Source: Tistrella mobilis (GTDB lineage Bacteria > Pseudomonadota > Alphaproteobacteria > Tistrellales > Tistrellaceae). From it: DNA of 64,000 nucleotides. Shown piece by piece: positions 34,729-57,400 of the stretch. The notes beneath the pieces were generated by a model. The model saw nothing but the letters and a program-made list of their open reading frames with translations. It ran no database searches and had not been told where the DNA came from. The stretch's first letter is position 1, and the number at the start of each line of letters is the position of its first letter. The DNA lies in assembly GCF_041468085.1 (NCBI RefSeq), contig NZ_CP121017.1:1529501-1593500 (forward strand). Reading direction: 5' to 3'. The position numbers and the translations under genes are program-made.

Positions 34729-36543
34729 ATGTGTGGCATCGCCGGCATCATGACCCGCGACGGCAGCCCGCCTGCGGCAGAGCTGCTCGACCGTCTGGCC
34801 CGGGGACTGGCTCATCGCGGGCCCGATGGTCATGGGGTGACGGTGCGGGGCTGCGTGGGGCTGGTCCATACCAGGCTTGCCATCATCGACCTCGTCACCG
34901 GCGATCAACCGCTGCTCTGGCCGCTGGATCCCGATGCCGGCGATGCGGGTGATACACTCGCACTGGTAGGTAACGGCGAAATATACAACTATCGCGAGCT
35001 AAAGGCGGACCTGGCCGGCCGGGCCTTCCGCACCGGATCGGATTGCGAGCCGCCGTTGCCGCTCTATCTGGAGCAGGGGCTGGACGGGCTCGACCGGCTG
35101 CGCGGCATGTATGCGCTGGCCATTCACGATCCGCGGCAGGGCGGGCGGCTGGTGCTGGCCAGGGACCCCTTCGGCATCAAGCCGCTCTATTATGTCGAAG
35201 GCCCGTTCGGTCTTGCCTTCGCCTCTGAGCCGGGGGCGCTGATCCGGGCCGGGCTGGCGGGGGCGGCGCTGGACGATGCCCGCATCCTGGAACTGCTGCA
35301 GCTGCATTTCACCACCGGCGCCGATACCGTGTTGCCGGCGATCCGGCGGGTGCTGCCCGGTGAGCGGCTGGTGGTGGAGGCGGGGCGGGTGGCGGCCCGC
35401 CGGCAGAGCCCGGCCCTGCCGCCGGCCGATGCCCGGCCTGATCCCGACCCCGGCCGCGACATGGCGGCGGCGGTGGAGGCTTTCGATCGGGTGTTCGAGC
35501 AGGCGATCGACCTGCACCAGCGCAGCGACGTGCCCTATGGCCTGTTCCTGTCGGGCGGCATCGACAGTGCCGCGGTGCTGGCGATGATGGCCCGGCTGAA
35601 CCCGCGGCCCGTGACGGCCTTCACGGCGGGCTTTGCCGATGGCGGCGTCCATGACGAGCGCGCCCAGGCCCGCATCGTCGCCGGGGCTGTGGGGGCCGAA
35701 TTGATCGAAACCCTGGTCACGCGCGCGGATTTCGAGAGGATCGCCCCGCTTGCGGCGCAGGCGCTCGACGACCCGACGCTCGACTATGCCGTGTTGCCCA
35801 GCTTCAGACTGGCCGAGATCGCCCGCCCGCAGGTCAAGGTGGTGCTGTCGGGCGAGGGTGGCGATGAACTTTTCGCCGGCTATGGCCGCTATCGCCGGGC
35901 CGCGCGCTGGCGGCTGCTGGGGGGGCGGCCGATGCGGCGCAAGGGCGATCTGGACGGGACGGGGCTGCTGCGTCCTGAATACGAGGCGGCGGCCGCGCGC
36001 TGGCGCGACGGCCTGGCTGCGGCAGAGGCCGCGGCGGCGCGGGCCGGTGGCAGCCGGCTGCGCCGGCTTCAGGCGGTGGACTGCACCGACTGGCTGCCCA
36101 ACGACCTGCTGCTGAAGCTGGACCGGATGCTGATGTTCAACGGCATCGAAGGGCGCACGCCCTTTCTCGACCGCGGGGTTGCAGGGTTTGCACTGCCCTT
36201 GCCCGACCGGCTGAAAATGGATGGCCGGCGCGGCAAGCTGGTGCTGCGTCATTGGCTGGCCCGCCATCTGCCGGCCGCTACCCCCTTCGCGCCCAAGCGC
36301 GGCTTTACCGTGCCGGTCGGCGCCTGGATCGCGGCCGATGCCGACCGTCTGGGCCATCTGGTGGCGGACGAGCCTCTGATTGCCCGGCTGGCGCGGCGCG
36401 AGGCGGTGATCGATCTGTTCCGCGATGCCGGCCGCCAGGGCCAGCGCGCCTGGGGGCTGCTGATGCTGGCGCTATGGCATCGCATCCATGTGACCGGCGG
36501 CGCGCCCTGCGAGAGCATCGCCGCCACACTCGCCGAGACCTGA
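34729..36543 (+). CDS. asnB: Glutamine-hydrolysing asparagine synthase (AsnB)
   Basis: Class-II amidotransferase plus ATP-pyrophosphatase. Cys2 of MCGIAGIM is the catalytic glutaminase residue, with LAHRGPDGHGV and the NGEIYNYRELK loop; the synthetase domain has FLSGGIDSAAVLAM (PP loop) and LSGEGGDELFAGYGRYRRA. 604 residues, standard length. SD GAGAGGA upstream. Its place after three glycosyltransferases is typical of surface-polysaccharide loci, where an AsnB-like enzyme may amidate a sugar acid; plain asparagine synthesis is equally possible. Confidence 0.93.
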   Translation: MCGIAGIMTRDGSPPAAELLDRLARGLAHRGPDGHGVTVRGCVGLVHTRLAIIDLVTGDQPLLWPLDPDAGDAGDTLALVGNGEIYNYRELKADLAGRAFRTGSDCEPPLPLYLEQGLDGLDRLRGMYALAIHDPRQGGRLVLARDPFGIKPLYYVEGPFGLAFASEPGALIRAGLAGAALDDARILELLQLHFTTGADTVLPAIRRVLPGERLVVEAGRVAARRQSPALPPADARPDPDPGRDMAAAVEAFDRVFEQAIDLHQRSDVPYGLFLSGGIDSAAVLAMMARLNPRPVTAFTAGFADGGVHDERAQARIVAGAVGAELIETLVTRADFERIAPLAAQALDDPTLDYAVLPSFRLAEIARPQVKVVLSGEGGDELFAGYGRYRRAARWRLLGGRPMRRKGDLDGTGLLRPEYEAAAARWRDGLAAAEAAAARAGGSRLRRLQAVDCTDWLPNDLLLKLDRMLMFNGIEGRTPFLDRGVAGFALPLPDRLKMDGRRGKLVLRHWLARHLPAATPFAPKRGFTVPVGAWIAADADRLGHLVADEPLIARLARREAVIDLFRDAGRQGQRAWGLLMLALWHRIHVTGGAPCESIAATLAET

Positions 36544-52302: not shown

Positions 52303-52575
52303 TCAGGCCTCGGCCGCCACGACAAGACCGGCGGCCTGAAGCTCGGCCAGGATGCGTGCAAGATCGACGCGGGCGTCTACCTCGGTGACGTCGTAGTAAT
52401 CGGTCACATGAGCCACCATCTCGTCCAGGGATGCCCCGTCCCGCAGTGGCGCCGTCAGCCGGCTGACGGCGCCGGTCAGGCCGAAATATTTCCCTGACGC
52501 ATAGTCGAGCAGCATGACGTCGGATTCGACTTCGACCTCAAGCACGTCCGGCGTAAAGCGATAGATCGACGGCAT
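52303..52575 (-). CDS. PqqD-family peptide-binding protein (RiPP recognition element)
   Basis: 90 residues, matching stand-alone PqqD proteins: VEVESDVMLLDYASGKYFGL, then LRDGASLDEMVAHVTDYYDV and a C-terminal LARILAELQAAGLV helix. In known systems PqqD-like domains bind the leader of a ribosomal precursor peptide and present it to modifying enzymes (PqqD itself; B1 of lasso-peptide systems). It is divergent from a 47-codon gene with a lasso-like leader 167 bases away, its probable client. Confidence 0.88.
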   Translation of the reverse strand: MPSIYRFTPDVLEVEVESDVMLLDYASGKYFGLTGAVSRLTAPLRDGASLDEMVAHVTDYYDVTEVDARVDLARILAELQAAGLVVAAEA

Positions 52576-52631
52576 TCAGGAGTTTTCCTGTCATCGGGTA
52601 TGTGATGGTCTTTGGCGGAAAGTTTCGTAAT

Positions 52632-52671
52632 ACTTGGCCAAGTTGCCTGAGGGTGGAGGCTTGATTAAGCC
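52632..52671. promoter_or_regulatory. Two palindromes between the pqqD-like and precursor genes
   Basis: ACTTGGCCAAGT (52632-52643) is a perfect 12-bp palindrome and GGCTTGATTAAGCC (52658-52671) a 5-bp arm repeat around GATT. Both lie in the AT-richer gap between divergent genes and could bind a regulator of both. Confidence 0.4.
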
Positions 52672-52683
52672 CCACATGTGCAC

Positions 52684-52713
52684 TTTACCCCGCGGCTGCG
52701 TCGAGTTTATACT
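52684..52713 (+). promoter_or_regulatory. Putative promoter of the precursor peptide gene
   Basis: TTTACC (52684-52689), 18-base spacer, TATACT (52708-52713), about 30 bases before the precursor ATG. The surrounding sequence is unusually AT-rich for this genome. Confidence 0.55.
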
Positions 52714-52742
52714 AAATATAGTTTTTAAGAGAGGGTATCTGA

Positions 52743-52886
52743 ATGTCTCATGAACGCTCTGATCTCGTGAGCCCGGAGAAGAGCCGGGCTGTGTTCGAAC
52801 CTTCTGCGCTGAAAGAGCATGGGACGGTCGAGGCGCTGACGCAGAGCAGCGGTAGCACCATCGCGGACGCAGCCTATCAGTCCTGA
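52743..52886 (+). CDS. Putative RiPP precursor peptide with lasso-type leader
   Basis: 47 residues, too short for routine gene calling. ATG has GAGAGGG upstream at good spacing. The leader contains FEPSALKEHGTVEALTQ, which matches the lasso-peptide leader pattern (aromatic, Pro, Leu, Gly, and a Thr six residues after Gly: F18, P20, L23, G27, T33). If cleavage follows the rule that Thr is second from the end of the leader, the core is S35-S47, SSGSTIADAAYQS. Asp is then core residue 8, where lasso rings close, and the last residue is Ser. Neighbours are a PqqD-like recognition protein and an HprK-like kinase; no lasso cyclase or leader peptidase is near. The modification is unknown. Confidence 0.7.
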   Translation: MSHERSDLVSPEKSRAVFEPSALKEHGTVEALTQSSGSTIADAAYQS

Positions 52887-52928
52887 ACAGGTATCGCGGA
52901 AGCGTGACCGCCTCTTAGCGGCCTGATC

Positions 52929-52962
52929 ATCGATGCGGCAGGCCGGTTGGCCTGTCGTCGAT
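52929..52962 (+). other. Imperfect hairpin between precursor and kinase genes
   Basis: ATCGA...TCGAT and CAGGCC/GGCCTG arms around a GGTT loop, no T run. Could attenuate read-through so that precursor mRNA exceeds enzyme mRNA, as in many peptide operons. Confidence 0.35.
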
Positions 52963-53036
52963 GGCAAGGCGTTATGCGCCGCATGGTGCCATTGATCTCG
53001 TCACGACGCAGGCCCACATCGGCATGGAGTTTTTGA

Positions 53037-54002
53037 ATGCGCGCCACGATCTGTGGTCTGTCTGTCGCCATCTGCGGAAGGGCAGATGAGGACGCAGCCG
53101 GCAGCGCAGTCGAAGGCGGTGCGGACATCGTCTGGCGGGACAGAGCTGTCAGCGACGCCCTGGTGGTTCCCGATCTGCCCTATGGCACGGCGGCAGTCAT
53201 CCGGCACGAAGAGACGGTCTGGATTGAGCAGAGTTATGGCGACTCCGAGGGCATGCCGATCTGCCGCTTCCGGATTTCCGGTGACGGGCGCGTCCTGCTG
53301 TCCGAAAGCCTGGTCAGGCTGGCCTGGTCAGATCTGTATGGCCTGTTCACGGAACCCGTGATGCGCACCATTCTGTCGCGGATGGGCTTGGTGTCGTTTC
53401 ATGCGGCGGCCCTGGTGAAGCAGGATGCGGCGATCCTGATCATGGGGCAGAAGGGGGCCGGCAAGTCCAGCCTGTCGGCGGCGCTGAGCCGGGTCGGCTG
53501 GCAGCTGATTGCCGATGATCTGGTGCGGATCGTCGAACGCAACGGACATTGCTTTGCGACGGCGGGCGGCACGGTGCCGCGGGTCAATGCCGATACCGCA
53601 CGGGCGCTGGGCTTCGATCCGGCCACGCTCGCAACCCGCTGGACCAATCCGAGGGCTGCCGGCAACAAATTCGTGCTGCCGGCCCCGACCGCCGGCACCC
53701 CGCCATCCGAGGTCCCCATTCGGGCGGTATTGCTGCTCGACCCGCGTGGCTCCGATCTTGAGACGCCGGATTGGTGCCGCCTGGGCGGCGTCCAGGCCCT
53801 GCCCGGGCTGGTCGCCAATCTGACCCCCGATCCTTTGAACCCGTCTGCCCGTCCGACACGGGAGGCGATGCGCGTGACTGGCGGGCTGCTGCGGCAGGCG
53901 GCAATCTGTCGGGTGCGCCTGCCCGATCGGCTGGACGCGCTCATCACCGCCGCGGCTGCCGTCGATGCCAGGCTCGCCGAAGGCGGCTGCGTTGCGGCCT
54001 GA
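53037..54002 (+). CDS. HprK-like serine kinase, RiPP-associated
   Basis: 321 residues. The P-loop is GQKGAGKSS (residues 137-145) within FHAAALVKQDAAILIMGQKG, followed by LSAALSRVGWQLIADDLVRI, the HPr kinase C-domain layout. The N-terminal ~125 residues (PDLPYGTAAVIRHEETVW ...) are the degenerate domain found in RiPP-linked HprK homologues. In known cases (paeninodin PadeK, ThcoK) such kinases phosphorylate the C-terminal Ser of a lasso precursor; the precursor next door ends in Ser. ATG at 53037 has GGAG 7 bases upstream. The end overlaps the next gene. Confidence 0.8.
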   Translation: MRATICGLSVAICGRADEDAAGSAVEGGADIVWRDRAVSDALVVPDLPYGTAAVIRHEETVWIEQSYGDSEGMPICRFRISGDGRVLLSESLVRLAWSDLYGLFTEPVMRTILSRMGLVSFHAAALVKQDAAILIMGQKGAGKSSLSAALSRVGWQLIADDLVRIVERNGHCFATAGGTVPRVNADTARALGFDPATLATRWTNPRAAGNKFVLPAPTAGTPPSEVPIRAVLLLDPRGSDLETPDWCRLGGVQALPGLVANLTPDPLNPSARPTREAMRVTGGLLRQAAICRVRLPDRLDALITAAAAVDARLAEGGCVAA

Positions 54003-56040
54003 TCCTGCCATCCCCGGCCTGTCACCGGCCGGCTGCTTCGATGTTCTGTCGCACCGGCTGGCCGATGTACTGGTCGCGCCGGCCAGACGCCGGGCGATCA
54101 GGGATGCCGCCCGGCAGCTGCCGCCTGTGCCGCGACTGGCGCTGGAAATCCGGCTGGGCGGCGGGGTGGCGGCCGTCGACGGGGCGGTGGACCTGCACCA
54201 GATGATCACCCGCCGCGAGGATGATCCGCTGATCCTGCGGCACCATCTGGATCAGGGGGGTGGCGCCTGGGCCGGGGCCGGGCTGACCGGTTTCCTGCGC
54301 GACTGGGCGGCGGATGAGGACGGGCTCCAGGACCGGTTCGATCAGCTCTATCTGGAATGGGATGCGCCGACCGATGGCGCAGGGCCGCATCTGCCGGCGC
54401 TGTTTCTGGCCAGTGATCTGCGGTTCGAAGCCGCGGACAGCCGGGCCGCCCGACGCGATACCCTGCGCCGGGTGGTGGCCGGGCTTCGCAACGCGCAGGA
54501 CGGGCGCCTGTCCGATGCCTTGTTCGCGGTCGTGGACGGCCCGGTCTCGATCGGCCATGTCGGCGTGATGTCCGGCCGCAGCAACGCGATTCGGGTGAAT
54601 TATCGGGGCATCGGACCGGCGGACCTGCCGGGGCTGCTGGGCCGGCTCGGCTGGCCGGGGAATGTCGCGGCCGTCTCGGGCCATTTCGCGGCGCTGGTCG
54701 AGGCGGCGGATCGGGTGACGGTGGGGGTCGATCTCGTCGACGGCGCGCTGCAACCCTCGATCGGTTTGGAAATCTTCTGCGACCATCCGCTGCCCTCGGC
54801 GCGCTGGGACCGGATCCTGGATCACCTGTGCCGACACGACCTTTGCGCGGCTGAAAAACGTGTGGCCCTGGGGGAAGTCGAGGCGACCATCGCCGTCGAC
54901 GATGCTGACCGGCCCTGGCCGGCGGCGTGGATCCTGCCCACGATCCGGGGGCCCCGAGACGCCTGGCCCATGGTCCGCTGTCATGTCTCGCACCTGAAGC
55001 TTGCGATTGCGGCCGATGGCGTTGCGCAGGCCAAGGCCTATATCGCGGCCGAGCATCACTGGCAGATCGGCCATGGCCGGCCGGCCGAGGTGACGTTGCC
55101 CGCGGGGCTCGCCTTCCACCCGCGGCCATCCATCCCTGAGGCCGTGGCCGATGCGGTGGGCTTTCTGCTGCGCGCCCGCCAGCAGAACGGTCTCTGGGGC
55201 GATTTCAACCGGATCAATGGCGGCTGCAACAACTGGGTCACGGGCGTTGCGGCCCTGGCGCTGGCTGCAACCGGCGGCGAGGATGCGCGCGCCGGTGCGG
55301 CGGCGGCCCTGCAGGTGCTGTGCGGTCGTGTGCGGCCCGGCGGCGGCTGGGGACATAACGAGATCGCGCCGGTCGATACCGACACCACCGCCTCGATCAT
55401 CAAGGCGCTGATGGCGGTGGCGGCGCCTGAAAGCCTGCCGGTCGTCGCTGCGGCCCGGGATTTCCTGCGCGGCCATCTGACCGATGGCGGCTTTCAGACC
55501 TATGGAGCCGGGACCGCGATCCGGTTTGCCGAGGACGGGGTCGTGGATACCGGCTGGCGGGCCAGCCATGCCTGCGTCATGGCCAATTGTGCGCTGCTTC
55601 TGCCCGACCGGCTGATCCCGCTGTTGCAGCGGAACCAGGCGGCGGATGGCAGCTGGCGGCCCTATTGGTGGCGCAGCCCCGCCTATCCGACCGCGCTCGC
55701 CGCCGAGGCGCTGGCGGCACATGGCGACCGGGCGGTCGTCGATCGGGCGGTTGCCTGGGCCCGGCGGCAGGATCCGGCGGCGCAGAGCCCGTTCCGTGCC
55801 GCGGCGATCGCCCGCGTGCTGATCGCCGGTGGTGATCGGGCGGGCGCCGGGGATGTTCTGGCGGGGCTGTTGTCTCGGCAATTGAGCGACGGCAGCTGGA
55901 TGACCGGCGCGGACATGATCTGGCCGCGGCCCGACCAGATGGATGGCCATATGGACTTCCTGGACGTGCCCGATGACCGGCGCATTTTCACCACGGCCGG
56001 CGTGCTGCTTGCCTTCGCTGCGGCAACTGCCTGCACATGA
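53965..56040 (+). CDS. Unknown N-terminal domain fused to squalene-cyclase-like alpha/alpha toroid
   Basis: 691 residues. From about residue 395 to the end it shows terpenoid-cyclase/prenyltransferase repeats: QQNGLWGDF, NNWVTGVAALALA, GGGWGHNEIAPVDTDTTAS (D471-T-D473, in the place of the acid motif of class II cyclases), GWRASHACVMANCALLL, QAADGSWRPYW and QLSDGSWMTGAD. The first ~370 residues form a domain I do not recognise, with HLPALFLASDL, RLGWPGNVAAVSGHF, PSIGLEIFCDHPLPSARWD and VSHLKLAIAADGVAQAKAYI. I recall similar proteins in peptide clusters of other bacteria but cannot name them. ATG at 53965 overlaps the kinase gene by 38 bases without a ribosome site; TTG at 53992, preceded by GAAGG, is a good alternative. 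Likely the main modifying enzyme. Confidence 0.7.
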   Translation: MPGSPKAAALRPDPAIPGLSPAGCFDVLSHRLADVLVAPARRRAIRDAARQLPPVPRLALEIRLGGGVAAVDGAVDLHQMITRREDDPLILRHHLDQGGGAWAGAGLTGFLRDWAADEDGLQDRFDQLYLEWDAPTDGAGPHLPALFLASDLRFEAADSRAARRDTLRRVVAGLRNAQDGRLSDALFAVVDGPVSIGHVGVMSGRSNAIRVNYRGIGPADLPGLLGRLGWPGNVAAVSGHFAALVEAADRVTVGVDLVDGALQPSIGLEIFCDHPLPSARWDRILDHLCRHDLCAAEKRVALGEVEATIAVDDADRPWPAAWILPTIRGPRDAWPMVRCHVSHLKLAIAADGVAQAKAYIAAEHHWQIGHGRPAEVTLPAGLAFHPRPSIPEAVADAVGFLLRARQQNGLWGDFNRINGGCNNWVTGVAALALAATGGEDARAGAAAALQVLCGRVRPGGGWGHNEIAPVDTDTTASIIKALMAVAAPESLPVVAAARDFLRGHLTDGGFQTYGAGTAIRFAEDGVVDTGWRASHACVMANCALLLPDRLIPLLQRNQAADGSWRPYWWRSPAYPTALAAEALAAHGDRAVVDRAVAWARRQDPAAQSPFRAAAIARVLIAGGDRAGAGDVLAGLLSRQLSDGSWMTGADMIWPRPDQMDGHMDFLDVPDDRRIFTTAGVLLAFAAATACT

Positions 56041-56054
56041 GGGGGAGGGCTGAC

Positions 56055-56258
56055 ATGTCGATAACCGGTATCAGGGCGGCGCTCGCCTTTCTGGGGACAG
56101 AGCGTCGGCGACCAGAGGCGGCGGCGGCCGAGGACTATGATGGCCTGATGGCCCTGGCCGGTGCGGCCGGATATCGCTTCACCGTTGCGGAGCTGCAGGA
56201 CGCCTTTCGCATCCATATGCGGGCCCGGCTGCTGGCCATGACGGGAGGCGGAGGATGA
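56055..56258 (+). CDS. Nif11-like domain microprotein ending in GGGG
   Basis: 67 residues. MSITGIRAALAFLG at the start and YDGLMALAGAAGYRFTVAEL in the middle fit the Nif11 domain pattern, used as the leader of Nif11-derived natural product precursors. Unlike such precursors it stops right after MTGGGG, with no core. It may be a stand-alone carrier or binding domain, or a precursor whose product is tiny. GGAGGG 5 bases before ATG 56055; an ATG at 56037 overlaps the previous stop. Its stop overlaps the amidohydrolase start (ATGA), so the two are co-translated. Confidence 0.65.
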   Translation: MSITGIRAALAFLGTERRRPEAAAAEDYDGLMALAGAAGYRFTVAELQDAFRIHMRARLLAMTGGGG

Positions 56259-57400
56259 CTGATGGCCTGCCACGGCTGATCTGCGATGCCGACAGCCATA
56301 TCATGGAGCTGCCGGATTTTCTGCGTCAGCATGCCGATCCGGATCTTCGCGATGCCCTGCCGCGGATCGGCATGGATACCGGGCGACGGCGGGAGACGGT
56401 GGGGGAGGCGATCACCCGGGGCCATCATTCCGCCGAGACCGTCGCGGCGCTGATGGCCCATGGCGGCGATCTTCTGGCGGGCCCAAAGGACTATCACGCG
56501 CTGGGTGCCTTCAGCGGAGAGGAGCGTCGTCTGGCACTCGATCTGCTGGGGCTGCGCAGGCAGGTCGTGTTTCCGTCCTTTGCCGTGGTGCCGGTCTTCT
56601 ATGGAATGCAGGGGCCGGCGCTGGCCTATGGGGCTGCGCGGGCGCTCAATCGCGCGATCGCTGCCTTCTGTGCCGGTGATGCCCGGCTGGCGGGGGTGGG
56701 GTTGCTGCCGATCGACGACCCGGCCCTGGCGCGGGACGAGATCGAGCATATCATCCGCCTGGGGCTGCGCGCGGTGTGGCTGCCGCATCAGGGCCTGCCC
56801 GACTATGCCTTCCACCCGCGAAGCCTGGAGCCGGTCTGGGCCCGCATGGCCGAGGCGGGGTTGGTGCTGGCCTGCCATATCATGCCGCCGCCCGACGTGG
56901 CACGGCAGATGGCCGCCACGGGCGAGATCGTGCCGTTCGAGATGCTGGAAGGCGATGATGCGCCGCGGTCGGATCAGGTCGTCTTCGTCTCCGAGCGCGT
57001 GGAGATTTTTCTGAGCCGGTTGATCTTCGACGGCGTGCTGCAGCGCTATCCGGGCCTGCAGTGCCTGATCGCGGAATTCGGCGGCGGCTGGGTGCCCGGG
57101 ATGATGCGCCGCCTGGATGGCGCGGCCGCGCAGATCTTCCGCGGCGCGGGCCGGGCGCCGGCCCGCCGGCCCTCGGAACAGATTCTGGACCAGTGTCTGT
57201 TCACGCCCTATCACCACGAGGATGTGGGGGCGTTGATCCGGGCGTCCGACAGCCGGCTCTATGCGTTTTCTACCGATTATCCGCATATCGAAGGCGGCCG
57301 GGACCCTGTCGCATCCTTCGATGCCACGCTCGGCGGTTGCACAGAGGCAGAGCGCGCCGCCTTCTATGCCGGAAATTTCCTGCGCGTCTTCGGCGAGTGA
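56255..57400 (+). CDS. Amidohydrolase family 2 (ACMSD-like) metal-dependent hydrolase/decarboxylase
   Basis: TIM-barrel enzyme, 381 residues. Metal-site candidates: CDADSHIMELPDFL at the N-terminus (DxDxH), His in VLACHIMPP, and Asp in FSTDYPHIEGG. LIAEFGGGWVPGMMRRLD is a common ACMSD-type strand. Members hydrolyse amides/lactones or decarboxylate aromatic acids without redox cofactors. Translationally coupled to the Nif11-like microprotein and last in the putative peptide operon, so it may cleave or decarboxylate a peptide-derived product. Independent catabolic use is also possible. Confidence 0.82.
   Translation: MTDGLPRLICDADSHIMELPDFLRQHADPDLRDALPRIGMDTGRRRETVGEAITRGHHSAETVAALMAHGGDLLAGPKDYHALGAFSGEERRLALDLLGLRRQVVFPSFAVVPVFYGMQGPALAYGAARALNRAIAAFCAGDARLAGVGLLPIDDPALARDEIEHIIRLGLRAVWLPHQGLPDYAFHPRSLEPVWARMAEAGLVLACHIMPPPDVARQMAATGEIVPFEMLEGDDAPRSDQVVFVSERVEIFLSRLIFDGVLQRYPGLQCLIAEFGGGWVPGMMRRLDGAAAQIFRGAGRAPARRPSEQILDQCLFTPYHHEDVGALIRASDSRLYAFSTDYPHIEGGRDPVASFDATLGGCTEAERAAFYAGNFLRVFGE

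Follow-up and report, generated by a model that had tools for sequence, protein, structure and literature searches.

What does a gene cluster make when it encodes a lasso-type precursor and a leader-binding PqqD protein, with no lasso cyclase or lasso peptidase beside them? The question is posed by positions 52303-57400 of a 64,000-nt stretch (the window) lying within the 6.3-Mb genome of Tistrella mobilis (G000). The locus is of the ribosomally synthesized and posttranslationally modified peptide (RiPP) type, as a first-pass annotation of the same DNA held, and we propose with moderate confidence that its product is a phosphorylated lasso-type RiPP bearing a cyclised terpene. Central to this proposal is a protein of 691 amino acids (aa) in which a predicted prenyltransferase is joined to a predicted terpene cyclase. 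All six open reading frames (ORFs) of the earlier description, the divergent PqqD-like gene included, were recovered at the same coordinates and accepted by our own gene caller, the 47-aa ORF with a low score (6.5, against a threshold of 4). The kinase, fusion, Nif11-like and amidohydrolase genes overlap one another. The start is uncertain for the 691-aa protein (residues 1-17 are of low confidence) and for the Nif11-like ORF (67 or 73 aa). The features are as follows.

52303..52575, minus strand: PqqD-family leader-binding protein (lasso B1 type), divergent from the other genes
52684..52713, plus strand: possible promoter of the precursor-kinase-fusion run (consensus match only, 9/12; the region holds 2 promoter-like sites against 0.8 expected from shuffles)
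52743..52886, plus strand: lasso-type precursor, 47 aa (profile of 10 other precursors, 4.4e-6)
53037..54002, plus strand: HprK-like kinase (Hpr_kinase_C and HprK_rel_A profiles)
53965..56040, plus strand: 691-aa fusion protein (one ORF, two domains)
53965..55080, plus strand: predicted ABBA-type prenyltransferase barrel, residues 1-372 of the 691-aa protein (AlphaFold2 model, Foldseek, VIA)
55120..56040, plus strand: predicted MstE-like monodomain class II terpene cyclase, residues 386-691 (phmmer, structure comparison, DTDTT motif D471-T475)
56037..56258, plus strand: Nif11-like small protein without a core, 73 aa (profile from 9 homologues)
56255..57400, plus strand: Amidohydro_2 family protein (Pfam Amidohydro_2, 1.6e-19)

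The C-terminal half of the 691-aa protein gives a Pfam match to SQHop_cyclase_C (1.7e-5) that is below the cut-off, a phmmer match to MstE (6sbf) at 2.2e-25, and a structural match to MstE (6sbd) with a Z-score of 39.0 over 304 aligned residues at 2.5 A. The domain has both the alpha-alpha toroid of class II cyclases and an acid motif of the DxDD/DxDTT type, DxDTT being the motif of Rv3377c. D473 of this motif (DTDTT) aligns with MstE D109, which we located through the PDB entries for MstE D109N and D109A, and D471, D473 and T475 are invariant in the 14-row alignment used for structure prediction. MstE (6sbb-6sbg) has the same fold and DxDTT motif; unlike the fusion, it is a single-domain protein, and it was solved with a prenylated benzoate. 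On the strength of the model and motif, we predict class II terpene cyclase activity of the MstE type for the C-terminal half.

A Pfam scan gives nothing for the first half of the protein, and no Pfam family exceeded its cut-off for this domain in the family members scanned. The AlphaFold2 model of the whole protein from the 14-row alignment scored well (predicted local distance difference test [pLDDT], 82.8; predicted template modelling score [pTM], 0.86). Since Foldseek and VIA searches with this whole model mainly probed the cyclase half, the N-terminal domain was predicted and searched separately. Folded alone (pLDDT, 84.3; pTM, 0.86), it forms a barrel of five beta-beta-alpha-alpha repeats according to the model and DSSP, which is the ten-stranded barrel of the ABBA enzymes. 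All 41 Foldseek matches at E ≤ 0.001 were aromatic, indole or peptide prenyltransferases (the best at 4.4e-7, PatF at 5.6e-4), with template modelling (TM) scores of about 0.5 at best, and the 50 VIA matches shown were likewise all prenyltransferases (Z, 17.3 to 13.5; identity, 5-16%), headed by MpnD (4yl7; Z, 17.3; 299 residues aligned at 4.1 A). The bacterial indole and DMATS-type enzymes MpnD, SCO 5-DMATS, PriB and IptA, and also PatF, share the five-repeat barrel with this domain at 5-16% identity in structural alignments. ABBA enzymes hold the diphosphate with basic and Tyr residues; candidates for this role by sequence position are H343, K345, K357 and Y359, invariant in a 13-row alignment, and R205 and R210, nearly so. 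By its modelled fold, the N-terminal half is an ABBA prenyltransferase, again in predicted activity. With an N-terminal barrel of this kind and an MstE-like C-terminal domain, the 691-aa protein is therefore read as a putative ABBA prenyltransferase fused to a terpene cyclase.

The first-pass annotation was right to single out this "toroid fusion" as the most distinctive enzyme of the locus; it left the prenyltransferase half unnamed, and the architecture has already been published for NctPC. According to the review through which we know that protein (PMC13290415; the primary paper is Hubrich et al. 2024, Chem 10:3224), NctPC unites an ABBA prenyltransferase domain with an MstE-like cyclase domain; it transfers a C20 geranylgeranyl group to Trp, with cyclisation following. 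Compared by description rather than by sequence, NctPC and the 691-aa protein have the same order of domains, ABBA and then MstE-like, in one protein and in a RiPP setting. They differ in that the fusion described here sits in a lasso-type cluster with a PqqD protein, a kinase and a free Nif11-like protein. Prenylated lasso peptides have also been reported (PMC12715784; the primary work is Harris et al. 2024) and share the prenyl group on a lasso peptide; the passage concerned mentions neither a fused terpene cyclase nor a Nif11-like partner. The NctPC enzyme type and prenylated lasso peptides are already known; the combination of fusion, kinase, PqqD, free Nif11-like protein and Tyr-x-Ser tail was not found described in the open-licence papers searched. 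In this PMC full text, we recognised no account of lasso-type clusters in which a prenyltransferase is fused to a terpene cyclase, although Hubrich et al. 2024 or Harris et al. 2024 may hold one.

Relatives of the fusion are rare. A single-sequence search of genome contigs with the 691-aa protein returned no relative; a pattern search of named genomes with a four-member alignment returned 27 loci, comprising 11 with a fusion in a lasso-type setting, a cyanobacterial locus (L080) with the fusion and no lasso genes, a doubtful locus from Kordia (L099), and 14 matched over the cyclase part only. L099 was rejected as a fusion of this family, its N-terminal part being hardly alike (19% overall, with motifs missing) and the search having matched only its cyclase part; it has a P450 and a methyltransferase and no lasso genes, and it is nevertheless one row of the structure-prediction alignment. 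Among 385 genomes of the class, 24 gave any match (E ≤ 0.001) and four (G000, G002, G096 and G276) had one covering most of the two domains (E below 1e-60). Among 398 genomes sampled from the phylum, only the window's own did so, two others matching one domain (E ≤ 1e-20). G002, one of two other genomes of the genus among the 41 searched, holds the same locus.

We compared 16 lasso-type loci: the 11 from the pattern search, the window, three from G096 and one further locus of the window's own genome (L060). Fifteen of these, the window included, have the prenyltransferase-cyclase fusion. Two pairs that proved to be one locus each (L006 and L084, L066 and L077) were counted once, and a broken copy in genome G001 (L005) was excluded. 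The hosts are Alphaproteobacteria (Sphingomonas and kin, Tistrella, Rhizobiales and Rhodospirillales), an uncultured bacterium (L081), and metagenome-assembled genomes (MAGs) labelled Acidobacteriaceae (L088) and Schekmanbacteria (L085). Local profiles, applied over 9 kb or as much of it as the contig holds, place an HprK-like kinase at 16 of the loci, PqqD at 15, a Nif11-like gene at 15, an AsnB-type cyclase at 12, a P450 at 11, a methyltransferase at 6, a B2 peptidase at 3 and an amidohydrolase at 1. Co-occurrence with PqqD, HprK-like and Nif11-like genes in other genomes had been put forward as a check on the locus, and most of the gene set does prove to be conserved there. These counts are presence calls from profiles built partly from the same loci; the kinases of L060, L065, L082, L083, L086, L087 and L088 and the Nif11-like genes of the window, L065, L077, L082, L085 and L087 were found without being in the profile. 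L086 ends within the fusion gene, L088 starts within AsnB, and the kinase and fusion genes of L087 were not called as single full ORFs; apparent absences at these three loci may therefore reflect truncation. None of the gene set (HprK-like, PqqD, Nif11-like, AsnB, P450, methyltransferase and B2) was found in the 14 cyclase-only loci, in five loci with stand-alone prenyltransferase domains or in L080. The NCBIfam model that fitted best was the lasso cyclase, below its cut-off, for every one of the six cyclases scanned from fusion-type clusters. Terpene tailoring would be a fitting role for the P450 and methyltransferase genes near the fusion.

The sixteenth locus, L060 (6847-13508; G000:C4, about 3.367-3.374 Mb), has the prenyltransferase domain fused to an S-adenosylmethionine (SAM) methyltransferase rather than a cyclase, and also holds a P450, a Nif11-like gene, PqqD, a precursor, a lasso-type cyclase and a kinase-like gene with P-loop matches and no Hpr_kinase_C (HprK-like by the local profile at 9e-51). 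Elsewhere in the collection, L062 5264-6298 and L073 6476-7606 were tried as HprK-like genes and rejected, Pfam giving weak sulfotransferase matches (neither was used in the HprK profile), and L062 6576-7562, tried as a nucleotidyltransferase, belongs to the 2OG-Fe(II) oxygenases according to Pfam. At L081:1531-4493, Pfam also identifies a JmjC-type oxygenase and a carbamoyltransferase next to the cluster, and L086 and L087 look similar.

The peptide that these enzymes would modify is probably the 47-aa product of 52743-52886. Among 487 small ORFs of the window, a profile from 10 other precursors (nine from fusion-bearing loci and one from another lasso-type locus in the same genome) scored this ORF at 4.4e-6 and the next best at 1.8. 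Lasso precursors have an aromatic-x(1,2)-Pro motif in the leader and Thr at position -2. The leader contains FEPSALKEHGTVEALT, close to FEPSELVEHGDVNTLT in the leader from Sphingomonas sp. R647 (L078), and has both traits, the Thr counting as dependent evidence, as it sets the inferred boundary. The core predicted in this way is SSGSTIADAAYQS, 13 residues long, in which Asp8 is a possible ring acceptor and Tyr11 the likely prenyl acceptor. The divergent PqqD-like protein, which would bind the leader, matches Pfam PqqD above cut-off (1.4e-8) and NCBIfam lasso_PqqD_Strm under that model's cut-off (6e-12); it pairs with the PqqD of L078 (support, 95/90) in a poorly resolved tree.

The kinase scores under the curated cut-offs, both for Hpr_kinase_C (1.2e-6; 28.6 bits against 33.3) and for NCBIfam HprK_rel_A (4e-9), and it is paired with a precursor ending in Ser, as in the PadeK type of cluster. 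We read Ser13 as the putative kinase site by analogy, because PadeK phosphorylates the C-terminal Ser of its precursor, a site described as extremely conserved wherever a kinase of this type occurs (PMC9266682). The clusters of the paeninodin/pseudomycoidin type (with kinases PadeK and PsmK) share the lasso-type precursor, B1, HprK-like kinase and C-terminal Ser with the window locus, which, unlike them, lacks a local C and B2 and has the prenyltransferase-cyclase and Nif11-like genes in addition.

The precursor tails are consistent with Tyr as the acceptor. Precursors were found at 15 of the 16 loci (none at L088), and 14 of the 15 have Tyr within the last four residues, the exception being L064, against one of six precursors from other lasso-type loci of the window's genome (Fisher p, 0.0017). 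A Tyr-x(0-2)-Ser terminus likewise occurs in 14 of the 15, and a C-terminal Ser in all 15, as in all six comparison precursors. Nine of the 15 came from a leader-motif scan that also matched six other ORFs, set aside by eye, and that of L063 came from gene calling. For L065, L077, L083 and L085, the choice was made by eye among small ORFs with a terminal Ser, and for L060 by eye from the small-ORF list, in each case after the tail pattern was known; the six used for comparison were likewise chosen by eye, from tables of genes. The safer counts, leaving out the five picked by eye, are 9 of 10 against 1 of 6 for Tyr (p, 0.0076) and 10 of 10 for terminal Ser, and both p-values are optimistic in that some precursor rows are near relatives. 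Five of the six comparison precursors have Trp replacing Tyr or Phe in the leader motif. Within the last 25 residues, Trp is absent from 14 of the 15 cluster precursors, including that of the window; the L060 precursor has one.

How, then, might the ring be closed and the leader removed? Of the parts of a lasso cluster, the window locus has the precursor and B1 and lacks C and B2. The only strong match to Asn synthetase in the window is asnB (34729-36543), which groups with another general asnB of the genome. The layout is the same divergent one as at L078, where AsnB and PqqD are on one strand and the precursor, P450, kinase, fusion and Nif11-like genes on the other; the cyclase of L078 lies directly behind PqqD, and the corresponding place in the window is empty. 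The first-pass description of a precursor and PqqD "without lasso enzymes" was accurate for the locus and not for the genome, in which there are one B2 and five lasso-type cyclases elsewhere (L060, L062, L072, L073 and L104), nor for the family, 12 of 16 loci having a cyclase. Lasso parts are scattered through this genome: L073 and L104 have AsnB and a precursor without PqqD, L074 and L076 a precursor and PqqD without AsnB, and L060, L062 and L072 are fuller. One of these, L072:3322-7652, is a lasso-type locus with a sulfotransferase, a kinase-like gene, PqqD and a cyclase. The B2 (L061:6838-7410, contig C1) stands alone, with no cyclase or PqqD in the stretch examined, and exceeds the NCBIfam cut-off (72.1 against 33 bits); each of three genomes of the genus has one B2. 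In the cyclase tree, the L078 enzyme groups with those of L083, L062, L073 and L104 (97/95), a grouping that is no proof that the own-genome cyclases serve the window precursor. None of the three fusion loci of G096 has AsnB, and one of them, L065, has a B2; at other sites, the same genome carries AsnB-type genes and two B2 genes. A supply of cyclase and B2 in trans from other loci of the genome is plausible.

Given the computed results (two folds, a conserved acid, a conserved gene set, a precursor motif and a missing local cyclase), we propose a course of events in which the acceptor residue, prenyl length, order of steps, supply in trans and role of the Nif11-like protein are all inferred. 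PqqD would bind the leader of the 47-aa precursor, and the HprK-like kinase would phosphorylate the C-terminal Ser. The ABBA domain would move a long prenyl chain, most likely onto the Tyr near the C terminus, and the MstE-like domain would then cyclise this chain by protonation from D473, with the Nif11-like protein acting in trans as a helper or adaptor of the 691-aa enzyme. Macrolactam closure and leader removal would be left to the cyclases and the lone B2 at other sites in the genome, or may be in the course of being lost.

Several observations weigh against this proposal. No remnant of a lasso cyclase, B2, P450 or methyltransferase was found in the window locus, so that both ring closure and leader removal lack a local enzyme, and the P450 that is common in related loci is absent. 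At 13 residues, the predicted core is very short by the standard of threaded lassos. The ABBA match reaches a TM score of about 0.5 and an identity of at most 16%, and the ABBA and cyclase activities are predicted from fold and motif only. The L064 precursor, from a fusion locus, has neither Tyr nor Trp in its C-terminal part; four of the Tyr-bearing precursors (L081, L082, L086 and L087) are closely related; and the amidohydrolase is found in no related locus. The cluster is also dispensable, as the sister genome G001 keeps only remnants of it. Finally, the acceptor of NctPC as reviewed is Trp, which the window core lacks, having Tyr near the C terminus instead; Trp is a trait of the one characterised member and is not known to define the family.

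The G001 remnants also bear on a further reading, namely that the cluster was once complete, like L078, has lost its cyclase and P450, and no longer makes its peptide. At the same site in G001 (L005:6542-8409), between flanks with 92-96% identical DNA, several deletions have left pieces of the PqqD, kinase, fusion and amidohydrolase genes, and a precursor-like stretch remains at 75% identity. When the window is compared with these pieces, the ratio of nonsynonymous to synonymous substitution rates (dN/dS) lies at 0.25-0.36 over five segments, higher than the 0.03-0.22 of five genes in the flanks, and no trace of C or P450 is present locally, both of which L078 has in the same divergent layout. 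Against decay, the window copy is open throughout with its motifs kept: none of the six ORFs is interrupted, the 691-aa protein extends across its two domains with the invariant residues in place, and the four genes from kinase to amidohydrolase overlap. Moreover, dN/dS is well under 1 although one of the compared copies is broken, and the three G096 fusion loci also lack an adjacent AsnB in a genome that has AsnB and B2 elsewhere. We regard decay as rather unlikely, though a serious contender.

Alternatively, the missing cyclase may be a property of the product, which would then be a linear, phosphorylated and terpenylated peptide with its leader cut by the lone B2 or another protease. Four of the 16 loci are without an adjacent AsnB, and the predicted core is short for a threaded ring. 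The lasso-type leader and the Asp at predicted core position 8 have nonetheless been kept, and AsnB is present at 12 of the 16 loci; a cyclase-free variant seems to us unlikely.

It could also be argued that the fusion does not act on a peptide at all but on a small aromatic, in meroterpenoid synthesis of the MstE kind, and that the peptide genes are separate neighbours. The closest solved cyclase, MstE, has a geranylgeranyl dihydroxybenzoate substrate according to its structure titles, and many of the matched ABBA enzymes use small aromatics. However, nearly all 15 fusion loci, from several phyla (those outside Pseudomonadota being MAGs only), have the fusion together with the kinase, PqqD, precursor and Nif11-like genes, and the family's stand-alone prenyltransferase domains sit in loci with NHLP-like peptides. 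An unrelated small-molecule enzyme is very improbable.

The stand-alone prenyltransferase loci have features of their own. The NHLP-like peptides adjoining these domains were recognised by profile at L069 (NHLP leader, 1.7e-12; 47 bits against a cut-off of 50.9) and by eye at the others; at L068, NHLM-like transporters and no peptide were seen by eye. The domain at L067:4382-9893 is surrounded by eleven NHLP-like peptides (recognised by eye), every one with a C-terminal Trp; they are likely a Trp-prenylating RiPP family. In L069:5166-6467, an NHLP leader is apparently fused to a cyclase-like toroid (leader_NHLP, 1.7e-12; SQHop, 3.3e-5; both below cut-off), and L070:7722-9026 and L071:4506-5807 have the same look; at all three loci, a prenyltransferase domain and a peptide ending in CCCW adjoin the NHLP-toroid gene. 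At L094:9636-9890, L102:9849-10001 and L103:9723-9965, an MstE-like cyclase is directly preceded by a small protein that contains Cys and has a PSDW or PDDW ending; these proteins are possibly further terpene-modified peptides.

There remains the reading of the first-pass annotation, in which the 73-aa protein is a Nif11-leader peptide and the substrate of a new class of RiPP enzyme; this is hardly credible, since the Nif11 match behind it is weak (Pfam Nif11, 0.032, below cut-off; NCBIfam leader_Nif11, 0.014), no core is visible after the helical domain in 10 aligned Nif11-like proteins, whose sequences stop soon after that domain, and 15 of the 16 loci have a separate precursor. With a profile built from nine homologues at other loci, the window ORF scores 2e-10 and its nearest rival 0.62, and the gene lies near the fusion in 15 of the 16 loci, on either strand. 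Judged by sequence, the Nif11-like protein is a conserved stand-alone partner and not a precursor; that it serves as a trans-acting adaptor of the fusion is our guess. The amidohydrolase had likewise been counted among the modifying genes, and its presence at one of 16 loci, the window, removes it from the shared set; it may be a candidate tailoring hydrolase or decarboxylase.

If the locus does make a phosphorylated, terpene-bearing lasso-type peptide, an enzyme that joins a cyclised terpene to such a peptide, together with its conserved C-terminal Tyr-x-Ser motif and conserved Nif11-like helper, would offer new lipidated peptides from a compact source, and two large natural-product classes, lasso-type peptides and terpenes, would be joined here. 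More tentatively, it is possible that these loci form a separate hybrid family of lasso-type peptides with a polycyclic terpene on a C-terminal Tyr, in which a Nif11-like adaptor in trans replaces the fused leader, and one B2 and a pool of cyclases serve scattered precursors. The proposal makes two ideas testable: that a stand-alone Nif11-like domain can serve in trans as a leader or an adaptor, and that the scattered loci of one genome may share lasso parts.

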